Part shown: piece after piece, positions 3,770 to 48,924 of the stretch | How the letters are laid out: each line of letters starts with the position of its first letter | Position numbering within the stretch: the first letter of the stretch is position 1 | Origin: Luteimonas terrae | Lineage (GTDB): Bacteria; Pseudomonadota; Gammaproteobacteria; Xanthomonadales; Xanthomonadaceae | Reading direction: 5' to 3' | NCBI RefSeq assembly: GCF_004358165.1 | Contig: NZ_SMTG01000002.1 | Location: 496,001 to 560,000, forward strand | DNA: 64,000 bases | Translations under genes and position numbers: made by a program | Notes under the pieces: generated by a model | The model's database searches: none | What the model saw: only the letters and a program-made list of their open reading frames with translations | Told to the model about the DNA's origin: nothing

Positions 3770-5782
3770 TCAGAGCGCCTGCTGTGCGAGTTCGCGCGTC
3801 CGCGCGTCCTCGGTCGTTTTCACTTCGTCGGCCGGGATGTAGTAGTCGCGGTCGTAGTTGAAGGTGTGCCAGATCGACGCGACGATCAGCGTCACGAACG
3901 ACAGGCCCGCCAGCCACCAGATGTGCCAGATCAGACCGAAGGCCAGCGCCGTGCTGATCGCCGACAGCACGACGCCCGCGCCGGTGTTCTTGGGCATGTG
4001 GATCGAGGTGAAGCCGGTGGTCGGACGCGTGTAGCCGTGCTTCTTCATGTCCGTCCAGGCATCGATCTCGTAGACGACCGGGGTGAACGCGAAGTTGTAG
4101 TTCGGCGGCGGCGAGGAGGTCGCCCATTCCAGCGTGCGGCCGTTCCACGGATCACCGGTGGTGTCGAGCAGCTTCTTGCGGTTCTTCACCGCGACCGCGA
4201 TCGACAGCAGGAACGCGCCGATGCCGGCCGCGACCAGTGCAGCGCCGATGGCCGCGATGATGAAGAACACCGACAGCGAGGTGTCCTCGAACTGGCTCAG
4301 GCGACGGGTCACGCCCATCAGACCCATGATGTAGAGCGGGGTGAACGCCAGCCAGAAGCCGACCAGCCAGCACCAGAACGAGACCTTGCCCCAGAACTCG
4401 TCGAGCTTGAAGCCGAACGCCTTCGGGAACCAGTACACGATGCCGGCGAACAGACCGAACAGCACGCCGCCGATGATCACGTTGTGGAAGTGCGCGACCA
4501 GGAACAGCGAGTTGTGCAGCACGAAGTCGGCCGGCGGCACCGCCAGCAGCACGCCGGTCATGCCCCCGATGACGAAGGTGAACATGAAACCGATCGTCCA
4601 CAGCATCGGCACGTCGAAGCGGATGCGGCCCTTGTACATGGTGAAGAGCCAATTGAAGATCTTCGCGCCCGTCGGGATCGAGATGATCATCGTCGTGATG
4701 CCGAAGAACGCGTTGACGCTCGCGCCCGAGCCCATCGTGAAGAAGTGGTGCAGCCACACCAGGTACGACAGGATCGTGATCACCGCGGTGGCGTAGACCA
4801 TCGAGGTGTAACCGAACAGGCGCTTGCCGCAGTACGTCGCCACGACCTCGGAGAAGATGCCGAAGGCGGGCAGGATCAGGATGTAGACCTCCGGGTGACC
4901 CCAGATCCAGATCAGGTTCACGTACATCATCGGGTTGCCGCCGAGATCGTTCGTGAAGAAGTTCGTGCCGACGTAGCGGTCCATCGTCAGCAGCGCGAGC
5001 GTCGCCGTCAGGATCGGGAACGAGGCCACGATCAGAATGTTGGTGCAGAGCGAGGTCCAGGTGAAGATCGGCATGCGCATCAGCTTCATGCCCGGCGCGC
5101 GCATCTTGACGATGGTCACGATCAGGTTGATGCCCGATAGCGTCGTGCCGACACCGGCCACCTGTAGCGCCCACAGGTAATAGTCCATGCCTGTGCCTGG
5201 ACTGTAGTCGGCGCCCGACAGCGGCGGATACGCCAGCCAGCCGGTACGTGCGAACTCGCCGACGAACAGCGACGCCATGATCAGCGCGGCACCGCCGGCG
5301 GTCATCCAGAAGCTGAAGTTGTTGAGGAACGGGAACGCCACGTCGCGCGCGCCGATTTGCAGCGGCACGACGTAGTTCATCAGGCCCGTCACCAGCGGCA
5401 TGGCCACGAAGAAGATCATGATCACGCCGTGGGCGGTGAAGATCTGATCGTAGTGGTGCGGCGGCAGGAAGCCCTCGCCACCGCTGGAGGCCATGGCCTG
5501 GTGCGCGCGCATCAGCACCGCGTCGGCGAAGCCGCGCAGCAGCATCACGATCGCCAGCACGCAGTACATGATGCCGATCTTCTTGTGGTCGATGCTGGTG
5601 AACCACTCCTTCCACAGATAGCCCCAGAGGCGGTACCTGGTCAGCAGGAAGAGCGTGGCAATACCGCCCAGCACGACGCCGACGAAGGTGACGCCGACGA
5701 CCGGGTCATGGAGGAAGGGCAGTGCATCGAGCGACAAGCGCCCGATCCACGGGGATGTGATCTGGTCCTGGGGTGCGGACAT
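3770..5782 (-). CDS. cyoB: Cytochrome o ubiquinol oxidase subunit I
   Basis: Catalytic subunit that reduces O2 to water with electrons from ubiquinol and pumps protons. It has 670 residues (E. coli 663). The heme and CuB ligands are visible: the first low-spin heme His in [11 protein letters not shown], the CuB His and cross-linked Tyr in WGHPEVYIL, the adjacent His pair in WLHHFFTMG, and the two heme His residues in [12 protein letters not shown]. No cyoE (heme O synthase) follows the operon here, so heme O must be made from a gene elsewhere. Confidence 0.97.
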
Positions 5783-5827
5783 GGAGTTCCTGCCTGGTAC
5801 TTGGATTGCGTGATGCGATGCGGACGA

Positions 5828-7027
5828 TCAGCGACCGGTCCGGCCGCCGTCGTTGTCCGGCTTGCCGGGAGCGCCTTCGTTCTGCGGTTCCTGGCCCGGC
5901 GGGATCGGCTTGACGCCTTCGTCGTCGTCCTCGTTGGACGGCGTCGGCTGCGGCGTCGGCTCATCCGGCGACACGGCGCGCGGCTGGTGACCCTGCGGCT
6001 CGTCGCCACGGGCTTCGCGGCCGGCTTCGGGGAACGTCGCGGCCGGGGCTGCGACCGGATCGTCGGCATGACGGTTGTCGTAGCGCAGACGGTCGTAGTT
6101 GGCCTGGCTGTCGACGCCGCCGCCACCGCTGCGGTCGATGTGCGCCATCTCGTGCACGCACATCGAACCGGGCGCGACGCACATGTTGACGATCGCCTCG
6201 AACAGCGCCGGATCGACGTCGCCGAAATAACGCACCGGCTCACGCTCGGACGGACGCTCGAGCACCAGGTATTCCTCGCGGCCCAGACGCGTCGTGTCGG
6301 CCTGGACCTTGGCCACCCAGGCGTCGAAGCCGTCCTCGCTCAGGCCGTGGAAGTCGAAGCGCATGTGCGAGAAGCCGTCGCCGCTGAAATTGCCGGAGAA
6401 GCCCTTGTAGACGCCTTCCTTGTTGATGACCGCGTGCAGCTTGGTCTCCATGCCCGGCATGGCGTAGATCTGGCCTGCCAGCGCGGGGACGAAGAAGGAA
6501 TTCATGATCGACGACGAGGTCAGCTTGAACTGGATCGGGCGGTTCACCGGCGCGGCCAGTTCGTTGATCGTGGCGATGCCCTGTTCGGGATAGAAGAACA
6601 GCCATTTCCAGTCGATCGCGACCACTTCCACCACCAGCGGCTCGACGCCCTCGGGAATCGGCGTGTTCGCGTCGATGCGGTCGAGCGGGCGATACGGATC
6701 GAGCTTGTGCGTCGCGATCCAGGTCACCGTGCCCAGCACGAGGATGATCGCCAGCGGCGCCGACCAGATGATCAGCTCCAGCCGCGTGGAGTGGTGCCAC
6801 TCGGGCGCGTACTCGGCGTCCTTGTTCGACTCGCGGTATTTCCAGGCGAAGAAGAACGTCAGGAAGATCACCGGCACGATGATCAGCAGCATCAGGACCG
6901 TGGACAGCACGATCAGGTCGCGCTGCTGGACCGCGATGTCGCCCGAAGGCGCCATGACGGTCCATTCGCAGCCGGACAGCACCGTGGCTGCCAGGAGCAG
7001 CGCGAAGATTCGAAGAGTGGATTTCAT
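5828..7027 (-). CDS. cyoA: Cytochrome o ubiquinol oxidase subunit II with long C-terminal tail
   Basis: Lipoprotein subunit II of the bo3 oxidase. ATG at 7027 gives 399 residues; an in-frame TTG six codons earlier is less likely. A signal peptide ends in the lipobox LSGC (Cys20). Two membrane helices and the cupredoxin domain follow. The CuA ligands are absent (FSGNFSGDGFSHM in their place), as expected for a quinol oxidase. It is ~85 residues longer than E. coli CyoA because of a low-complexity tail (from about residue 310) rich in Asp, Glu, Pro, Arg and Gln. The tail should be periplasmic and looks disordered. First gene of cyoABCD-SURF1. Confidence 0.93.
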   Translation of the reverse strand: MKSTLRIFALLLAATVLSGCEWTVMAPSGDIAVQQRDLIVLSTVLMLLIIVPVIFLTFFFAWKYRESNKDAEYAPEWHHSTRLELIIWSAPLAIILVLGTVTWIATHKLDPYRPLDRIDANTPIPEGVEPLVVEVVAIDWKWLFFYPEQGIATINELAAPVNRPIQFKLTSSSIMNSFFVPALAGQIYAMPGMETKLHAVINKEGVYKGFSGNFSGDGFSHMRFDFHGLSEDGFDAWVAKVQADTTRLGREEYLVLERPSEREPVRYFGDVDPALFEAIVNMCVAPGSMCVHEMAHIDRSGGGGVDSQANYDRLRYDNRHADDPVAAPAATFPEAGREARGDEPQGHQPRAVSPDEPTPQPTPSNEDDDEGVKPIPPGQEPQNEGAPGKPDNDGGRTGR

Positions 7028-7205
7028 TGAGGGGATCGACGACAACGGAGAGGAATACGACTTGACGGAAGCGCTACGGCGCGGCCGTTAGCGTGGGGGT
7101 GTAGCGGGGCGCCGGGCCTTGCTGCTGCGCACCTTGCTTGGCGGGCCCGTTTCGGGTTCACAATGCGGCGCATTATCCCCCATAACGACCGGAGAGAGCG
7201 CGCAG

Positions 7206-8525
7206 ATGAGCGATATTGCACAGCAAGCCACCACCGGCCTCGACGACGCGCCGGAAACCGACGACCTGGAAGTGTCTCCAGGCAAGATCGCGTTTCCCGT
7301 CGTCATGGGGCGGACATCGGAATTCTTCGACTTCTTCGTGTACGGCATCGCCGCGGTGCTGGTGTTTCCGTACCTGTTCTTTCCCGATGCCGATCCGGTG
7401 CAAGCGACGCTCAAGTCGTTCGCGGTGTTCTCGCTGGCCTTCATCGCACGTCCGATCGGCTCGATCGTCTTCATGGCGATCGACCGCAACTTCAGCCGCG
7501 CGGCCAAGCTGATCGGCGCGTTGTTCCTGCTGTGCGGTTCGACGATGGCGATCGCCTTCCTGCCCAGCTATGCGCAGGCCGGCATGCTCGCGCCGGTGCT
7601 GCTGGCGGTGTTCCGCTTCGGCCAGGGCCTGGGTTGGGGCGGCGCTTGGGACGGCCTGCCGTCGCTGCTGTCGCTGACGGCGCCGCGCGAGCGCCGCGGC
7701 TGGTACGCCATGGTTCCGCAGCTCGGCGCGGCCTTGGGCTTCATGCTCGCCTGCGGCATGTTCCTGATCTTCACCCGCGTGCTGAGCCAGGAAGACTTCA
7801 TGGCGTGGGGCTGGCGCTTCCCGTTCTTCGTCGCGCTGGCGCTCAATGTGGTCGCGCTCTTCGCGCGCCTGCGTCTGGTGGTCACGCCCGAGTTCAAGCG
7901 TCTGTTTGACGAGAAGGAACTGCAGCCGCGGCGCGTCGTCGAGACCATCGCCACGCATCCGCGCCAGGTGTTCGTCGGCGCGCTGATTCCGCTGGCGACC
8001 TATGCGATGTTCCATCTGGTGACGATCTTCCCGCTGAGCTGGGCGACGCTGTTCACCGATCACAACGCGACCGATTTCCTCGGCAGCCTGTTCCTGGGCT
8101 CGATCGTCGGCGGGCTGGGCATCATGCTGTCGGGCATCCTGGCCGACCGCGTAGGCCGCCGTGGCCAGCTGGCGATCGCCGCGGTGCTGATCGCGCTCTT
8201 CAGCTTCTTCGCAGCGCCGCTGCTGGGCAGCGACACCACCGCGGGCCGCACGACCTACGTCGTCATCGGCTTCGCCCTGCTGGGCCTGTCGCTCGGGCAG
8301 GCGAGCAACGCGATCGCCTCGCGCTTCGAGAGCATCTACCGCTACACCGGCGCTGCGGTGACCTCGGACATCGCCTGGCTCGTGGGCGCCGGTTTCGCGC
8401 CGCTGGTCGCGCTGTGGCTGTGCAGCCACTACGGCCTGGCCTACGTCGGCTACTACCTGCTCTCGGGCGCGGCGGTCACGCTGGCCGCCCTGGGCTTCAG
8501 CCGCACGCTCGAAACGGTGCGCTGA
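7206..8525 (+). CDS. MFS transporter, metabolite:H+ symporter (MHS)-like
   Basis: Probable proton-coupled importer of a small organic solute; the substrate cannot be read from sequence. The 439 residues have the MHS pattern: an N-terminal cytoplasmic stretch, GRTSEFFDFFVYGIAAVLVF at helix 1, LAFIARPIGSIVFMAIDRNF at the helix 2-3 loop, FRFGQGLGWGGAWDGLPSLL in helix 4, and twelve predicted helices. The start was placed at ATG 7206 because GGAGAGAGC lies just upstream; the open frame extends further 5' without support. Divergent from cyoA, and a hairpin at 8544-8568 follows it. Confidence 0.85.
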   Translation: MSDIAQQATTGLDDAPETDDLEVSPGKIAFPVVMGRTSEFFDFFVYGIAAVLVFPYLFFPDADPVQATLKSFAVFSLAFIARPIGSIVFMAIDRNFSRAAKLIGALFLLCGSTMAIAFLPSYAQAGMLAPVLLAVFRFGQGLGWGGAWDGLPSLLSLTAPRERRGWYAMVPQLGAALGFMLACGMFLIFTRVLSQEDFMAWGWRFPFFVALALNVVALFARLRLVVTPEFKRLFDEKELQPRRVVETIATHPRQVFVGALIPLATYAMFHLVTIFPLSWATLFTDHNATDFLGSLFLGSIVGGLGIMLSGILADRVGRRGQLAIAAVLIALFSFFAAPLLGSDTTAGRTTYVVIGFALLGLSLGQASNAIASRFESIYRYTGAAVTSDIAWLVGAGFAPLVALWLCSHYGLAYVGYYLLSGAAVTLAALGFSRTLETVR

Positions 8526-9710: not shown

Positions 9711-10163
9711 ATGCAACTGATTCTTCTGCAGAAGGTCACCAACCTCGGCAACCTCGGTGACAAGGTCAACGTGAAGCCGGGCTACGGCCGCAACTACCTC
9801 GTGCCGCAGGGCAAGGCCGTGCCGGCGACCGCCGCCAGCATCGCCGAGTTCGAATCGCGTCGCGCCGAGTACGAAGCCAAGGCGAAGTCGCAGCTCGACG
9901 AGGCGCAGCAGCGCCTGGCCAAGCTGGAAGGCGCCAGCGTGACCGTTTACGCCAACGCGTCGACCGAAGGCAAGCTGTACGGCTCGGTCGGTCCGCGCGA
10001 AATCGCTGACGCGCTGACCAAGGCGGTCACACCGGTCAACAAGTCGGAAGTCGTGCTGGGTGAAGGCGCGTTCCGCAACACCGGTGAGTTCGAGGTCGTG
10101 GTGCACCTGCACGCCGACGCCGAGACCACCGTCAAGGTGATCATCGAAGGCGAGGTCGCCTGA
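9711..10163 (+). CDS. rplI: 50S ribosomal protein bL9
   Basis: A 150-residue large-subunit protein with two RNA-binding lobes joined by a long helix. The N-terminal lobe shows [19 protein letters not shown] and the glycine-rich [16 protein letters not shown] signature. The linker helix spans roughly residues 42-75, and the C-terminal domain contains [14 protein letters not shown]. It follows rpsR after an 89-bp spacer and ends the ribosomal operon before a clear terminator at 10189-10212. Confidence 0.97.
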
Positions 10164-10188
10164 TCCATCGGATCGGGTTGTCCTTGGG

Positions 10189-10212
10189 CGGGCGCCGAAA
10201 GGCGCCCGTTTT
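10189..10212 (+). terminator. Rho-independent terminator of rpsF-rpsR-rplI
   Basis: The stem CGGGCGCC pairs with GGCGCCCG (8 bp) around a GAAA tetraloop and is followed by TTTTCGTTT. It lies 25 nt after the rplI stop, so dnaB downstream must have its own promoter. Confidence 0.88.
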
Positions 10213-10311
10213 CGTTTGGGCGTTCTGTTCTGGCCGCTTGTACCGGGCTTTGGCTTCGGGGACCGCGCATCGGCCTGCCGGGCCACGGTCGCTTTTCCCT
10301 CGGTCAGGACG

Positions 10312-10483
10312 CTTCGCGGTCCGGCCCGGCGCAGCGCGCCGTGCGTTCGTGTGGACGCGCGGCAATGCCGCGCAAGCCGTCACCACTCACCCTGCCCTGA
10401 CTCGGGCGCGCGCCTGCTTCGCGGCCCGGCCGGGCAAAGCATGCCCGGCGTTCACCCGGTCGCGCGGCATGCCGCGCAAGCAG
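10312..10483. repeat. Degenerate ~105-bp direct repeat in the rplI-dnaB gap
   Basis: The stretch 10312-10379 recurs in degenerate form at 10416-10483. Both copies contain GCTTCGCGG, then CCGGCC, then a near-palindrome: GCGCGGC-AAT-GCCGCGC at 10357-10373 and GCGCGGC-AT-GCCGCGC at 10462-10477, each followed by AAGC. The repeat lies in the 767-bp gap 10164-10930. The open frames crossing it start inside the terminator or lack ribosome-binding sites, so I read this stretch as non-coding. Confidence 0.5.
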
Positions 10484-10677
10484 ACCGAGCTCATCCATGG
10501 CGCGCTCGGCGCAACCATGGCCCGTCAGTCCGCTGCTCGCTGCAACTACCAGCTTTCGTGGCTTCGAAAACGCTTCACGCATCAGCGCATTTCAGAGGTG
10601 TTTGGCCGATCTGCGGCATCCAACTGCAGTGCGTACGAGCTTTCGAAGTCTGCGTAGTCCCAGGTCGCGGGCGAGGG

Positions 10678-10755
10678 CTCGGCCGGGTGTTGCGGAGAGC
10701 GGACCATGGATGGTCCGCGGCGGCGAGTCAGTCAGGGATGACTGACCGAGCCGAG
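10678..10755 (+). ncRNA. Candidate structured RNA: twin ANGGAT-loop hairpins (CsrA/RsmA-type or TwoAYGGAY-like)
   Basis: Two perfect 7-bp hairpins carry hexaloops containing GGA. The first is 10699-10718 (GCGGACC, loop ATGGAT, GGTCCGC); the second is 10727-10746 (GTCAGTC, loop AGGGAT, GACTGAC). Eight bases separate them. An outer 6-bp helix, CTCGGC (10678-10683) with GCCGAG (10750-10755), would close the unit as a three-way junction. A-N-GGA presented in a hairpin loop is the established binding signal of CsrA/RsmA. Two hairpins with AYGGAY loops are the hallmark of the predicted TwoAYGGAY motif; the first loop fits exactly and the second has G in place of Y. Strand is chosen from the GGA orientation. 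Confidence 0.55.
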
Positions 10756-10842
10756 GAGCAATCCCGGCCGGGCACTCGCAGCATCCGAAGAAGTCGTCTC
10801 AGTCCGCGAGATAACTCGTTGTGAAGCTGCGCATCGTTAGGC

Positions 10843-10874
10843 TTATCCACAGGTTGTGGCGTCGCGTATCCACA
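10843..10874 (+). promoter_or_regulatory. Two DnaA boxes upstream of dnaB
   Basis: TTATCCACA at 10843-10851 is a perfect DnaA box. GTATCCACA at 10866-10874 differs at one position, in the same orientation, 23 bp further on (about two helical turns). They end 56 bp before the dnaB ATG. DnaA binding here could couple dnaB transcription to initiation state. No AT-rich unwinding region is present, so this is unlikely to be an origin. Confidence 0.6.
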
Positions 10875-10930
10875 GGCGTACGCCCTAGCATTCCAAGCGC
10901 CGTAGTCCGTTCCTCCAGAAGTCCACCGCC

Positions 10931-12352
10931 ATGTCCGCACGCAACGAATTCCGCAACAACGACCGCTTCGACCGCGATCGCGACCGCAGCGATGCGCGCG
11001 TGGAGCAGTTGCGTGTGCCGCCGCAGTCGGTCGAGGCCGAGCAGGCGGTGCTGGGCGGCCTCATGCTGGTGCCCGACGCCTACGACCGCATCGCCGACCT
11101 GCTGGTGCCGGACGATTTCTATCGCCGCGACCACCAGAAGATCTACGCCGCGATCCAGGAGCTGGCCGAGAAGAGCAAGCCCTTCGATGCGGTGACGCTG
11201 GGCGAGTGGTTCGAGTCCAACGGCCTGTCGGAACTCGTCGCCGGCGGCGCCTATCTGGGCGAGCTGGCCAGCACCACGCCCTCGGCGGCCAACATCCGTG
11301 CGTACGCCGAGATCGTGCGCGACAAGGCGATCCTGCGGCAGCTGATCGAAGTGGGCACCGAGATCGTCAATGACGGTTTCCAGCCTGAAGGCCGCGACAG
11401 CAGCGAGATCCTCGCCAAGGCCGAGCAGCAGGTGTTCAAGATCGCCGAGGCCGGTGCGCAGGGGCGCACCGACTTCACGGCGATCAACAAGGCAATGGCC
11501 GACGCCTTCGACGTGCTGCAGACGCGCTTCAACAACGGCGGCGGCGTCACCGGTCTGCCGACCGGCTATACCGAGTTCGACGAGATGACCGCCGGCCTGC
11601 AGCCGACCGACCTGATCATCCTCGCCGCGCGTCCGGCGATGGGCAAGACGACCTTCGCGCTCAACATCGCCGAATACGCGGCGATCAAGACCAAGAAGGC
11701 CGTGGGCGTGTTCTCGATGGAAATGTCGGCCAGCCAGCTCGCGCTGCGCCTGATTTCATCGAACGGTCGCATCAATGCCACGCGCCTGCGCACCGGCCAG
11801 CTGGAGGACGAGGACTGGAGCCGCGTCAGCAGCGCGATCCGCATGCTCAAGGAAACCAAGATCTTCATCGACGACACGCCGGGCCTGGGGCCCGACGTGC
11901 TGCGCGCGAAGTGCCGCCGTCTCAAGCGCGAGCACGATCTGGGCCTGGTGGTCATCGACTACCTGCAGCTGATGAGCGTGCCGGGCAACAGCGAGAACCG
12001 CGCGACCGAGATCTCGGAGATCTCGCGCTCGCTCAAGGGCCTGGCCAAGGAATTGAACGTGCCGGTGATCGCACTGTCGCAGCTCAACCGCTCGCTGGAA
12101 ACGCGTGCCGACAAGCGCCCGGTGATGGCCGACCTGCGCGAATCGGGCGCGATCGAGCAGGACGCCGACATCATCATCTTCATCTACCGTGACGACTACT
12201 ACAACAAGGAGACGTCGCCGGACAAAGGCCTGGCCGAGATCATCATCGGCAAGCAGCGTAGCGGCCCGACCGGCTCGGTGAAGCTGAAGTTCTTCGGCGA
12301 GTACACGCGCTTCGACAATCTCTCGCACGATTCGATCGGCAGCTTCGAGTAA
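10931..12352 (+). CDS. dnaB: Replicative DNA helicase DnaB
   Basis: Hexameric 5'-3' helicase that unwinds DNA at the replication fork and is loaded at the origin by DnaA with a loader. The 473 residues comprise an N-terminal collar domain (VPPQSVEAEQAVLGGLML, from about residue 30) and a RecA-like ATPase domain. Walker A is ARPAMGKTTF (Lys ~239), Walker B-like VVIDYLQLM, and motif H4 SQLNRSLETRADKRP. No intein or insertion is visible. The N-terminus is unusually rich in Arg, Asp and Asn. There is no obvious Shine-Dalgarno before the ATG, and two DnaA boxes lie upstream. Confidence 0.97.
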   Translation: MSARNEFRNNDRFDRDRDRSDARVEQLRVPPQSVEAEQAVLGGLMLVPDAYDRIADLLVPDDFYRRDHQKIYAAIQELAEKSKPFDAVTLGEWFESNGLSELVAGGAYLGELASTTPSAANIRAYAEIVRDKAILRQLIEVGTEIVNDGFQPEGRDSSEILAKAEQQVFKIAEAGAQGRTDFTAINKAMADAFDVLQTRFNNGGGVTGLPTGYTEFDEMTAGLQPTDLIILAARPAMGKTTFALNIAEYAAIKTKKAVGVFSMEMSASQLALRLISSNGRINATRLRTGQLEDEDWSRVSSAIRMLKETKIFIDDTPGLGPDVLRAKCRRLKREHDLGLVVIDYLQLMSVPGNSENRATEISEISRSLKGLAKELNVPVIALSQLNRSLETRADKRPVMADLRESGAIEQDADIIIFIYRDDYYNKETSPDKGLAEIIIGKQRSGPTGSVKLKFFGEYTRFDNLSHDSIGSFE

Positions 12353-48063: not shown

Positions 48064-48924
48064 TCAGCGGGCGAGACCGTCCAGCAGCGGGGTGGGCGTC
48101 ACCTGCACGCCGTCGACCGACAGCGTGTCTGCGACCCCGTCGATCGGCAGCACGGCAAGCAGCAGATCGCCTGTCGTGCAGACCACGCGGCCGATGGCCT
48201 GGTCGCCGGCGACGATCTCGTTGCCGGGCGCGGCCTGCGGGGCGCCGCGCAAGGCGGCGAGACCACGCTTGGCCTGGCCGAGGAAATGGGTGCGCGCGAC
48301 GATTTCCTGCCCGGGATAACACCCCTTGGCGACGCTGAAAGCGCGCAGCCGTTCCAGCGACAGCTGCTGCGGCGTCCATTGCTCGTGCTGGTCGTCGGGC
48401 AGGCGCGGCAGTCCGTGGGCGAGATCGAAGGCGCGCCAAGCGTGGTGCGCGTCCGCGTCATGCGTGAGAACGGGATCGATCGCGCGTACGCACAAGGTGC
48501 GCGGCTGCGCCGGCGATCCGACATCAAGCTCGAAGCCATCCCCATCGAGGGTTGCCTGCGCACCGCGTGCCTGGGCAGGAAGGAAGAAGCCGCCCGAGAC
48601 CTGCAGCTCGCCACGGGTTTCGATCGCGACCTTGCTGCGGAAGACGTAGCGTTTCAGCGATGCCGCCAATGCGTCGACGTCGCCATCGAGTACGACCAGA
48701 TCCAGGCGCTCCGCGCTGTGGCGCACCACCGCGAACAGCGCCACGACACGGCCTTTCGGGGTCAGCCAGCCGCTCCACTGCCACTGTCCATCGCCCAGCG
48801 CAGCGACGTCGCTCATGAATTGCGCCTGCGCGAATGCGATGCAATCGCGTCCGGACAACGTGAAAACCGCGATGTCGGAGAGCGCGAACTGCGGATTCGA
48901 CGCGGATTGCAGCTTGTCTGTCAT
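48064..48924 (-). CDS. ygfZ: Folate-binding Fe-S cluster maintenance protein YgfZ
   Basis: GcvT-related protein that uses tetrahydrofolate to help make or repair certain Fe-S enzymes. The 286 residues contain the hallmark AKGCYPGQEIVAR (with the essential Cys) at about residues 195-208, and FMSDVAALGDGQWQWSGWLT in the N-terminal domain. Start is ATG 48924; the open frame extends 125 codons upstream over the divergent sdh promoter and is rejected. Divergence from the sdh operon makes SdhB a plausible client. Confidence 0.92.
   Translation of the reverse strand: MTDKLQSASNPQFALSDIAVFTLSGRDCIAFAQAQFMSDVAALGDGQWQWSGWLTPKGRVVALFAVVRHSAERLDLVVLDGDVDALAASLKRYVFRSKVAIETRGELQVSGGFFLPAQARGAQATLDGDGFELDVGSPAQPRTLCVRAIDPVLTHDADAHHAWRAFDLAHGLPRLPDDQHEQWTPQQLSLERLRAFSVAKGCYPGQEIVARTHFLGQAKRGLAALRGAPQAAPGNEIVAGDQAIGRVVCTTGDLLLAVLPIDGVADTLSVDGVQVTPTPLLDGLAR

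Follow-up and report, generated by a model that had tools for sequence, protein, structure and literature searches.

A dispersed, extragenic, TwoAYGGAY-like repeat of Xanthomonadaceae that may display two RsmA sites when transcribed

The candidate structured RNA TwoAYGGAY was listed in 2010 from human gut, gamma-proteobacteria, and Clostridiales (Weinberg et al., PMC2864571); in the part of a later report that deals with it, it was proposed (2014) to bind CsrA and was described as having a tandem GA in one stem (Gardner and Eldai, PMC4333381). In Rfam search output, TwoAYGGAY (RF01731) and PrrB_RsmZ have the clan label CL00106 in common. The consensus for RsmA/RsmE recognition is given as 5'-A/U CANGGANG U/A-3' (PMC4353343). 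The sponge RNAs that sequester RsmA or CsrA (CsrB, CsrC, RsmX, RsmY, and RsmZ) carry GGA in hairpin loops that fit CANGGANG. To our knowledge, no homologues of CsrB/C or RsmV-Z have been reported in Xanthomonas. RsmU of Xanthomonas campestris, which belongs to the same family as the bacterium studied here, is described as an RsmA-sequestering RNA from an mRNA 3' UTR, and its binding to RsmA and its function persisted after replacement of all four GGA motifs (PMC7694677), so that GGA alone is weak evidence for RsmA binding. At the DNA level, REP sequences are described as GTAG-tagged palindromes of 20-40 bp (PMC3733652) and REPINs as inverted doublets with compensatory changes (PMC3116915). We compared these systems with a twin-hairpin unit found between rplI and dnaB in Luteimonas terrae. 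The unit resembles the sponge RNAs in its GGA-containing hairpin loops, and differs from them in having two loop sites, many dispersed copies, and no promoter or terminator of its own that we could see; no member of the CsrB, CsrC, RsmX, RsmY, or RsmZ families in Rfam matched in the window (the whole 64-kb stretch of DNA that was analysed). RsmU is reported to be a single locus (the comEA 3' UTR) kept in Xanthomonas only, and is set apart from the unit by this published description.

In the window, the complete unit occupies approximately 10671-10779 on the plus strand. The two 7-bp hairpins with GGA hexaloops to which the earlier note had drawn attention were confirmed. Hairpin 1 (10699-10718) has a perfect stem and the loop ATGGAT (10706-10711, context CATGGATG); hairpin 2 (10727-10746), separated from it by 8 nt, has a perfect stem and the loop AGGGAT (10734-10739), with the GGA cores of the two loops 25 nt apart. 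When either strand was scanned for CA(N)GGANG-loop hairpins with at least five stem pairs, just these two were found in the window, and a CA(N)GGANG twin with 7-bp stems was absent from 300 first-order Markov copies of the window. A lower stem, CGGC/GCCG, extends hairpin 2 to 10721-10753: GCCG at 10750-10753 pairs with 10721-10724, and between the lower and upper stems an unpaired GA (10725-10726) faces CGA (10747-10749) in an internal loop that would allow tandem GA. Both hairpins are enclosed by a long outer helix, with its 5' arm at 10671-10693 and its 3' arm at 10758-10779. A shorter 6-bp outer helix, CTCGGC/GCCGAG, had been suggested earlier; it does form in a fold restricted to 10678-10755, but the closing helix that is conserved is a different one: among 46 aligned copies the 6-bp helix is paired in 66.7% of cells (180/270), and the longer helix that lies beyond it in 92.8%. 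The minimum free energy of 10660-10780 was -75.1 kcal/mol, whereas its shuffles averaged -53.1 (z -5.68; none of 200 was as good). The opposite strand likewise gave a stable fold (z -6.11), as any near-palindrome would be expected to.

We built a covariance model, R1, from alignment A1, which holds 46 of the 48 distinct rows extracted (two near-identical dnaB copies were left out) and excludes loci L005-L008, where the units are interrupted. The MAFFT alignment A1 used no structural information; the consensus structure was derived from it afterwards. R1 matches the window at 10671-10776 with 106.7 bits (E 1.1e-22), the window copy itself belonging to the alignment of R1; the outer stem of the minimum free energy fold runs to 10779. 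In the consensus fold, the long outer helix encloses hairpin 1 and a hairpin 2 that has the lower stem and the GA/CGA internal loop. Compensatory stem changes with fixed loops, proposed earlier as a check on the hairpins, were seen: 95.0% of the cells in A1 pair and 28 of the 37 pairs have double-sided changes (0/500 shuffles as high), and shifting the partner by 1-3 columns lowered pairing to 32-44%. The outer helix has double-sided changes in 16/19 pairs; the lower stem of hairpin 2 is paired in 100% of cells with double-sided changes in 3/4 pairs. The broader alignment A3 (57 chosen sources) was fitted to the model and so leans towards structure; there, 96.9% of cells are paired and double-sided changes affect 36 of 37 pairs (0/500 shuffles as high), and this pairing count retains two opposite-strand shadow matches that were removed for the loop and G.T counts. 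The covariation indicates that the fold of the repeat unit is under selection. G.T pairs outnumbered A.C mismatches by 126 to 13 in A1 and 123 to 17 in A3, counted in cells that come from related copies and are hence not independent. Since a double-stranded cruciform predicts equal numbers of the two, the excess points to a single-stranded fold of the GGA-loop strand, either as RNA or as single-stranded DNA.

The loops vary far less than the stems. Of the 77 distinct units of A3, 74 match CA(N)GGANG in the first hairpin and 73 in the second, and the GGA itself is found in the loop of hairpin 1 in 77/77 and of hairpin 2 in 75/77. The N position may be any base or absent, approximately half of the hairpin 2 loops being without it. 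Stems that compensate around a constant CA(N)GGANG give sequence-level support to the proposal of the earlier note that the loops are the conserved and probably protein-read part. Its assignment of A-N-GGA as a CsrA/RsmA signal agrees with the Rsm/CsrA consensus in the form quoted above, as the unit loops match CANGGANG and retain it across distinct units. A CsrA domain is encoded in 240 of the 247 family genomes, the window's genome among them. GGA triplets that occur in the junction strands in addition to those of the loops were frequently lost among copies.

The unit is a dispersed repeat. A search of its own genome returned the window copy and six strong matches, partial or near-full, and R1 detected at least 11 units there. 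Scoring the best 150 candidates per genome in 12 chosen genomes, R1 gave lower bounds of 65, 38, 36, 30, 25, 25, 23, 17, 11, 11, 6, and 0 units, one of the 11s being the window's genome. With the best 15 candidates scored per genome, R1 matches were found in 79 of the 247 family genomes and 22 of the 54 genera. An exact-pattern search, which favours type A units, found 110 stretches in named genomes of Luteimonas, Xanthomonas, Pseudoxanthomonas, Lysobacter, Stenotrophomonas, and unclassified Lysobacteraceae; viral contigs carrying the exact pattern numbered zero, as did plasmids matched by blastn with the window unit. A second R1 match in the window (48406-48495, E 0.0047) has no CA(N)GGANG hairpins and was set aside as chance. 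In the titles and abstracts of the open-licence literature, we did not find such a repeat described. Two Xanthomonas loci (L126 at 4700-6700 and L171 at 6400-7900) carry tandem units joined to another repeat that contains CCCTCACCCCAACCCCTCTCCCG; an integron attC site, suggested by these tandem copies, was considered. The motif order of attC is RYYYAAC...GTTRRRY, and by eye this order is absent, so the idea was dropped.

The likeness to TwoAYGGAY noted earlier holds for the family and less well for the window copy. Both have an outer stem enclosing two hairpins with GGA-containing hexaloops, and the second stem of the unit has a GA/CGA internal loop that may be compared with the tandem GA reported for TwoAYGGAY in the part of that report cited above. 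In the window copy the outer-stem architecture is present and the first loop (ATGGAT) fits AYGGAY; the second (AGGGAT) does not fit the Y at position 2. Unlike TwoAYGGAY, the unit permits A-N-GGAT or no N in its loops, and the units are multi-copy and often head-to-head, two properties on which the cited passages on TwoAYGGAY are silent. The RF01731 model gave no match to the window copy at its gathering threshold (43 bits) or up to E 10, and its best match in the window's genome reached 20.9 bits at a different copy. Other units match RF01731 at full length and in register with 39.7, 36.3, and 35.1 bits, below the same cut-off of 43. At three loci, both models match at the same place and strand with RF01731 over the cut-off: L263 (50.1 bits; R1 56.2), L264 (46.0; R1 43.4), and L267 (45.7; R1 57.0). 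Two further R1 units fall below it, L270 (42.0; R1 53.2) and L276 (40.1; R1 86.9). With the best 10 candidates scored per genome, RF01731 matched in 49/247 family genomes at E <= 0.1 and exceeded its cut-off in 8/247. One over-cut-off locus from each of these 8 genomes was searched with R1, and all matched in register and in the same orientation; three of the matches were strong (43.4-57.0 bits) and five were weak (20.1-27.5 bits, E 0.0003-0.016). Two of the weak loci, read by eye (in G275 and G185), belong to another sequence type, "type C", and lie beside a TTTCTTTGG-type repeat. By these matches, the repeat and TwoAYGGAY overlap in the same structural continuum, in which the window copy is best called a diverged, repeat-borne relative. 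The co-matches strengthen the link to TwoAYGGAY, yet they bear on neither binding nor transcription and leave the odds of the readings discussed below unchanged. At L264 (1410-1485), the naRNA4 model (RF02564) matches below its cut-off (40.0 of 59.5 bits, E 0.0008) just before the over-cut-off TwoAYGGAY unit.

Gene context was examined for the first 80 of the 110 named stretches (129 units) with a home-made gene caller seeded on the window genes; for 37 of the 129 units, the caller placed a gene on one of the two sides at most. None of the 129 overlapped a gene by more than 30 nt. Gaps that hold units were convergent in 30 cases, co-directional in 23, and divergent in 4; among the remaining gaps, counted from 150 bp upwards, the numbers were 8, 64, and 40 (Fisher p 7e-11 for the convergent class and 3e-5 for the divergent one). 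In co-directional gaps, 19 units point with the genes and 14 against them. Neighbouring units are commonly arranged head-to-head: 39 of 47 neighbours less than 600 bp apart in the 80 named loci, where strand order is independent of the gene calls, and 24 of 34 neighbours closer than 500 bp to each other in ten one-contig genomes (150 of 182 matches). Placement in convergent gaps and away from promoters resembles that of REP sequences and speaks against a role as a leader.

We favour the reading, at a probability of roughly 0.5, that this is a dispersed, extragenic, probably mobile, TwoAYGGAY-like repeat of Xanthomonadaceae that displays two putative RsmA sites when transcribed, and that read-through RNA binds RsmA. 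One strand folds into a long outer stem enclosing two hairpins and presents CA(N)GGANG twice; read-through transcripts would cross a unit, and an RsmA dimer could then bridge both loops of the unit RNA. The copies together may act as a distributed RsmA sponge, and single copies as local RsmA-binding 3'-end elements. RsmA dimers are able to bridge two loop sites, and this ability, together with the 25-nt distance between the GGA cores, favours RsmA binding by read-through transcripts. The sequences themselves establish the fold and the strand that forms it, the constant loops, the dispersal of the units, their pairing, and their position outside genes; from these we infer transcription, RsmA binding, titration, and spread by an enzyme acting in trans. 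Several results count against this reading. A simple sigma-70 scan of 10100-10960 gave no promoter-like site; the ratio of 19 units with and 14 against the genes does not favour sense transcription; copies are decayed or missing at orthologous sites, so that no single copy looks essential; and the GGA in the junction strands is often lost.

The main rival is a mobile repeat that acts purely as DNA, similar to a REPIN or a MITE, whose loops are read as single-stranded DNA by a putative transposase or HUH-type endonuclease that recognises the fold and the ANGGAT loops, any effect on RNA being incidental. We regard it as possible, if doubtful. A loop-reading protein that binds or cleaves single-stranded DNA would yield the same covariation and the same strand asymmetry, and the rival would account for the dispersal of the copies, their head-to-head pairs, the CCGAAG-like motifs that recur by eye at unit ends, and the congeneric sites that lack a unit. 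REP, BIME, and REPIN sequences share with the repeat units an extragenic location, high copy number, palindromic structure, and a frequent arrangement as inverted doublets, with compensatory changes in REPINs as described in the source cited above. The unit differs from REP in its length of approximately 107 nt and its three-way junction vs. a 20-40 bp hairpin, and it lacks the GTAG tag; the listed Xanthomonas REPs differ from it in sequence. REP and REPIN sequences are paired with a RAYT, whereas the RAYT model NF047646 and PF01797 gave no match in the window's genome. Six more unit-rich genomes (G021, G054, G056, G060, G089, and G107) match neither model, and a RAYT/Y1 transposase as mobiliser is unsupported. 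Some unit-rich genomes do carry a RAYT (e.g., G176 and G257); that of G176 was found by NF047646 and missed by PF01797, so a negative with PF01797 alone is weak. By a crude reading by eye, no transposase was recognised among the 25 largest ORF clusters flanking 58 loci. A recurrent flanking gene was sought in the same clusters and rejected, as they consist of the rplI-dnaB neighbourhood, shadow frames, or orthologous neighbourhoods. The orientation of solo units to replication (ori taken from dnaA, some genome lengths rounded) showed no consistent preference in ten one-contig genomes: among 150 of 182 matches, 41 were co-oriented and 61 anti-oriented (p 0.06), with opposed ratios in G176 (3 vs. 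19) and G089 (13 vs. 2), some of these units being in tandem. A further point against the DNA-level rival is that a CA(N)GGANG loop with a free N is exactly the target of RsmA.

Alternatively, the unit could be an extragenic structure that stabilises or ends convergent mRNAs at their 3' ends, like REP/BIME and without RsmA. The very stable fold and the predominance of convergent gaps among those that hold units would suit this function; stability fails to explain why GGA loops stay constant amid near-universal change of the stem pairs, the window unit is not followed by a T-run in the sequence, and the sense bias is unclear (19 vs. 14). We consider this explanation improbable. The earlier note had raised a CsrA-sequestering sRNA or a regulatory leader, and a locus-specific dnaB leader, or an sRNA gene dedicated to the gap between rplI and dnaB, is hardly tenable: the R1 match lies on the dnaB strand, with 154 nt separating its end from the dnaB start, and six more congeners carry a unit upstream of dnaB, but units occupy many unrelated sites, most often between convergent genes in relatives, the site upstream of dnaB has no R1 match up to E 1 in three congeners (L026, L029, and L031) and two weak relics (21.6 and 19.5 bits) in a fourth (L030), and the scan described above found no promoter-like site.

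An extension of the RsmA-binding reading is tentative. A mobile family may have spread RsmA/CsrA-binding twin hairpins across the genomes of Xanthomonadaceae, to as many as tens of units in a genome, and so formed a distributed sponge tuned by copy number, with TwoAYGGAY as a branch of the same dispersed superfamily; with head-to-head pairing, transcription of either strand would yield one unit in RNA sense. If so, a spreading repeat and not dedicated sRNA genes would titrate a global post-transcriptional regulator, its copy number would tune the titration, and TwoAYGGAY would gain both a context in the genome and a host group in which it can be tested. Should RsmA not bind, a large repeat family with a covarying three-way fold and fixed loops, seven of whose genomes match neither of the Y1-transposase models searched, would still point to a novel loop-reading protein.

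The window copy belongs to a larger bipartite element. An inverted partner unit of type B lies on the minus strand at 10267-10536 in three blocks (10267-10306, 10388-10414, and 10492-10536), which were found by blastn with intact partners from L003 and L004. Two related inserts separate the blocks: a nested palindromic one (10307-10387), which resembles inserts in L002, L005, L006, and L007, lies at the hairpin 2 loop of the partner, and a second (10415-10491) at its hairpin 1 loop. By eye, from compared copies, the element ends on the left in GGCTTCGG (10252-10259, plus strand) and on the right in CCGAAG (10785-10790, plus strand). A clean target-site duplication was not obtained from the orthologous site of L003, which in G032 and G014 carries a different repeat, another twin ANGGAT-hairpin element that is type C by eye. 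At that site, L231 and L232 have a type C inverted pair where the window's genome has a type A/B pair. The second small palindromic repeat was inserted repeatedly at hairpin loops of units (in the window, L002, L005, L006, and L007) and may target the unit loop or a cruciform. Just 3' of rplI (10181-10215), a terminator-like hairpin GGGCGCC-GAAA-GGCGCCC is followed by a T-rich stretch; it is absent from the output of the consensus scan. Upstream of dnaB, two TATCCACAGG sites were found at 10843-10853 and 10868-10877, the first of which reads TTATCCACAGG and is DnaA-box-like by the consensus. Both sites are also kept in the congeners without the repeat (L026, L029, and L031).
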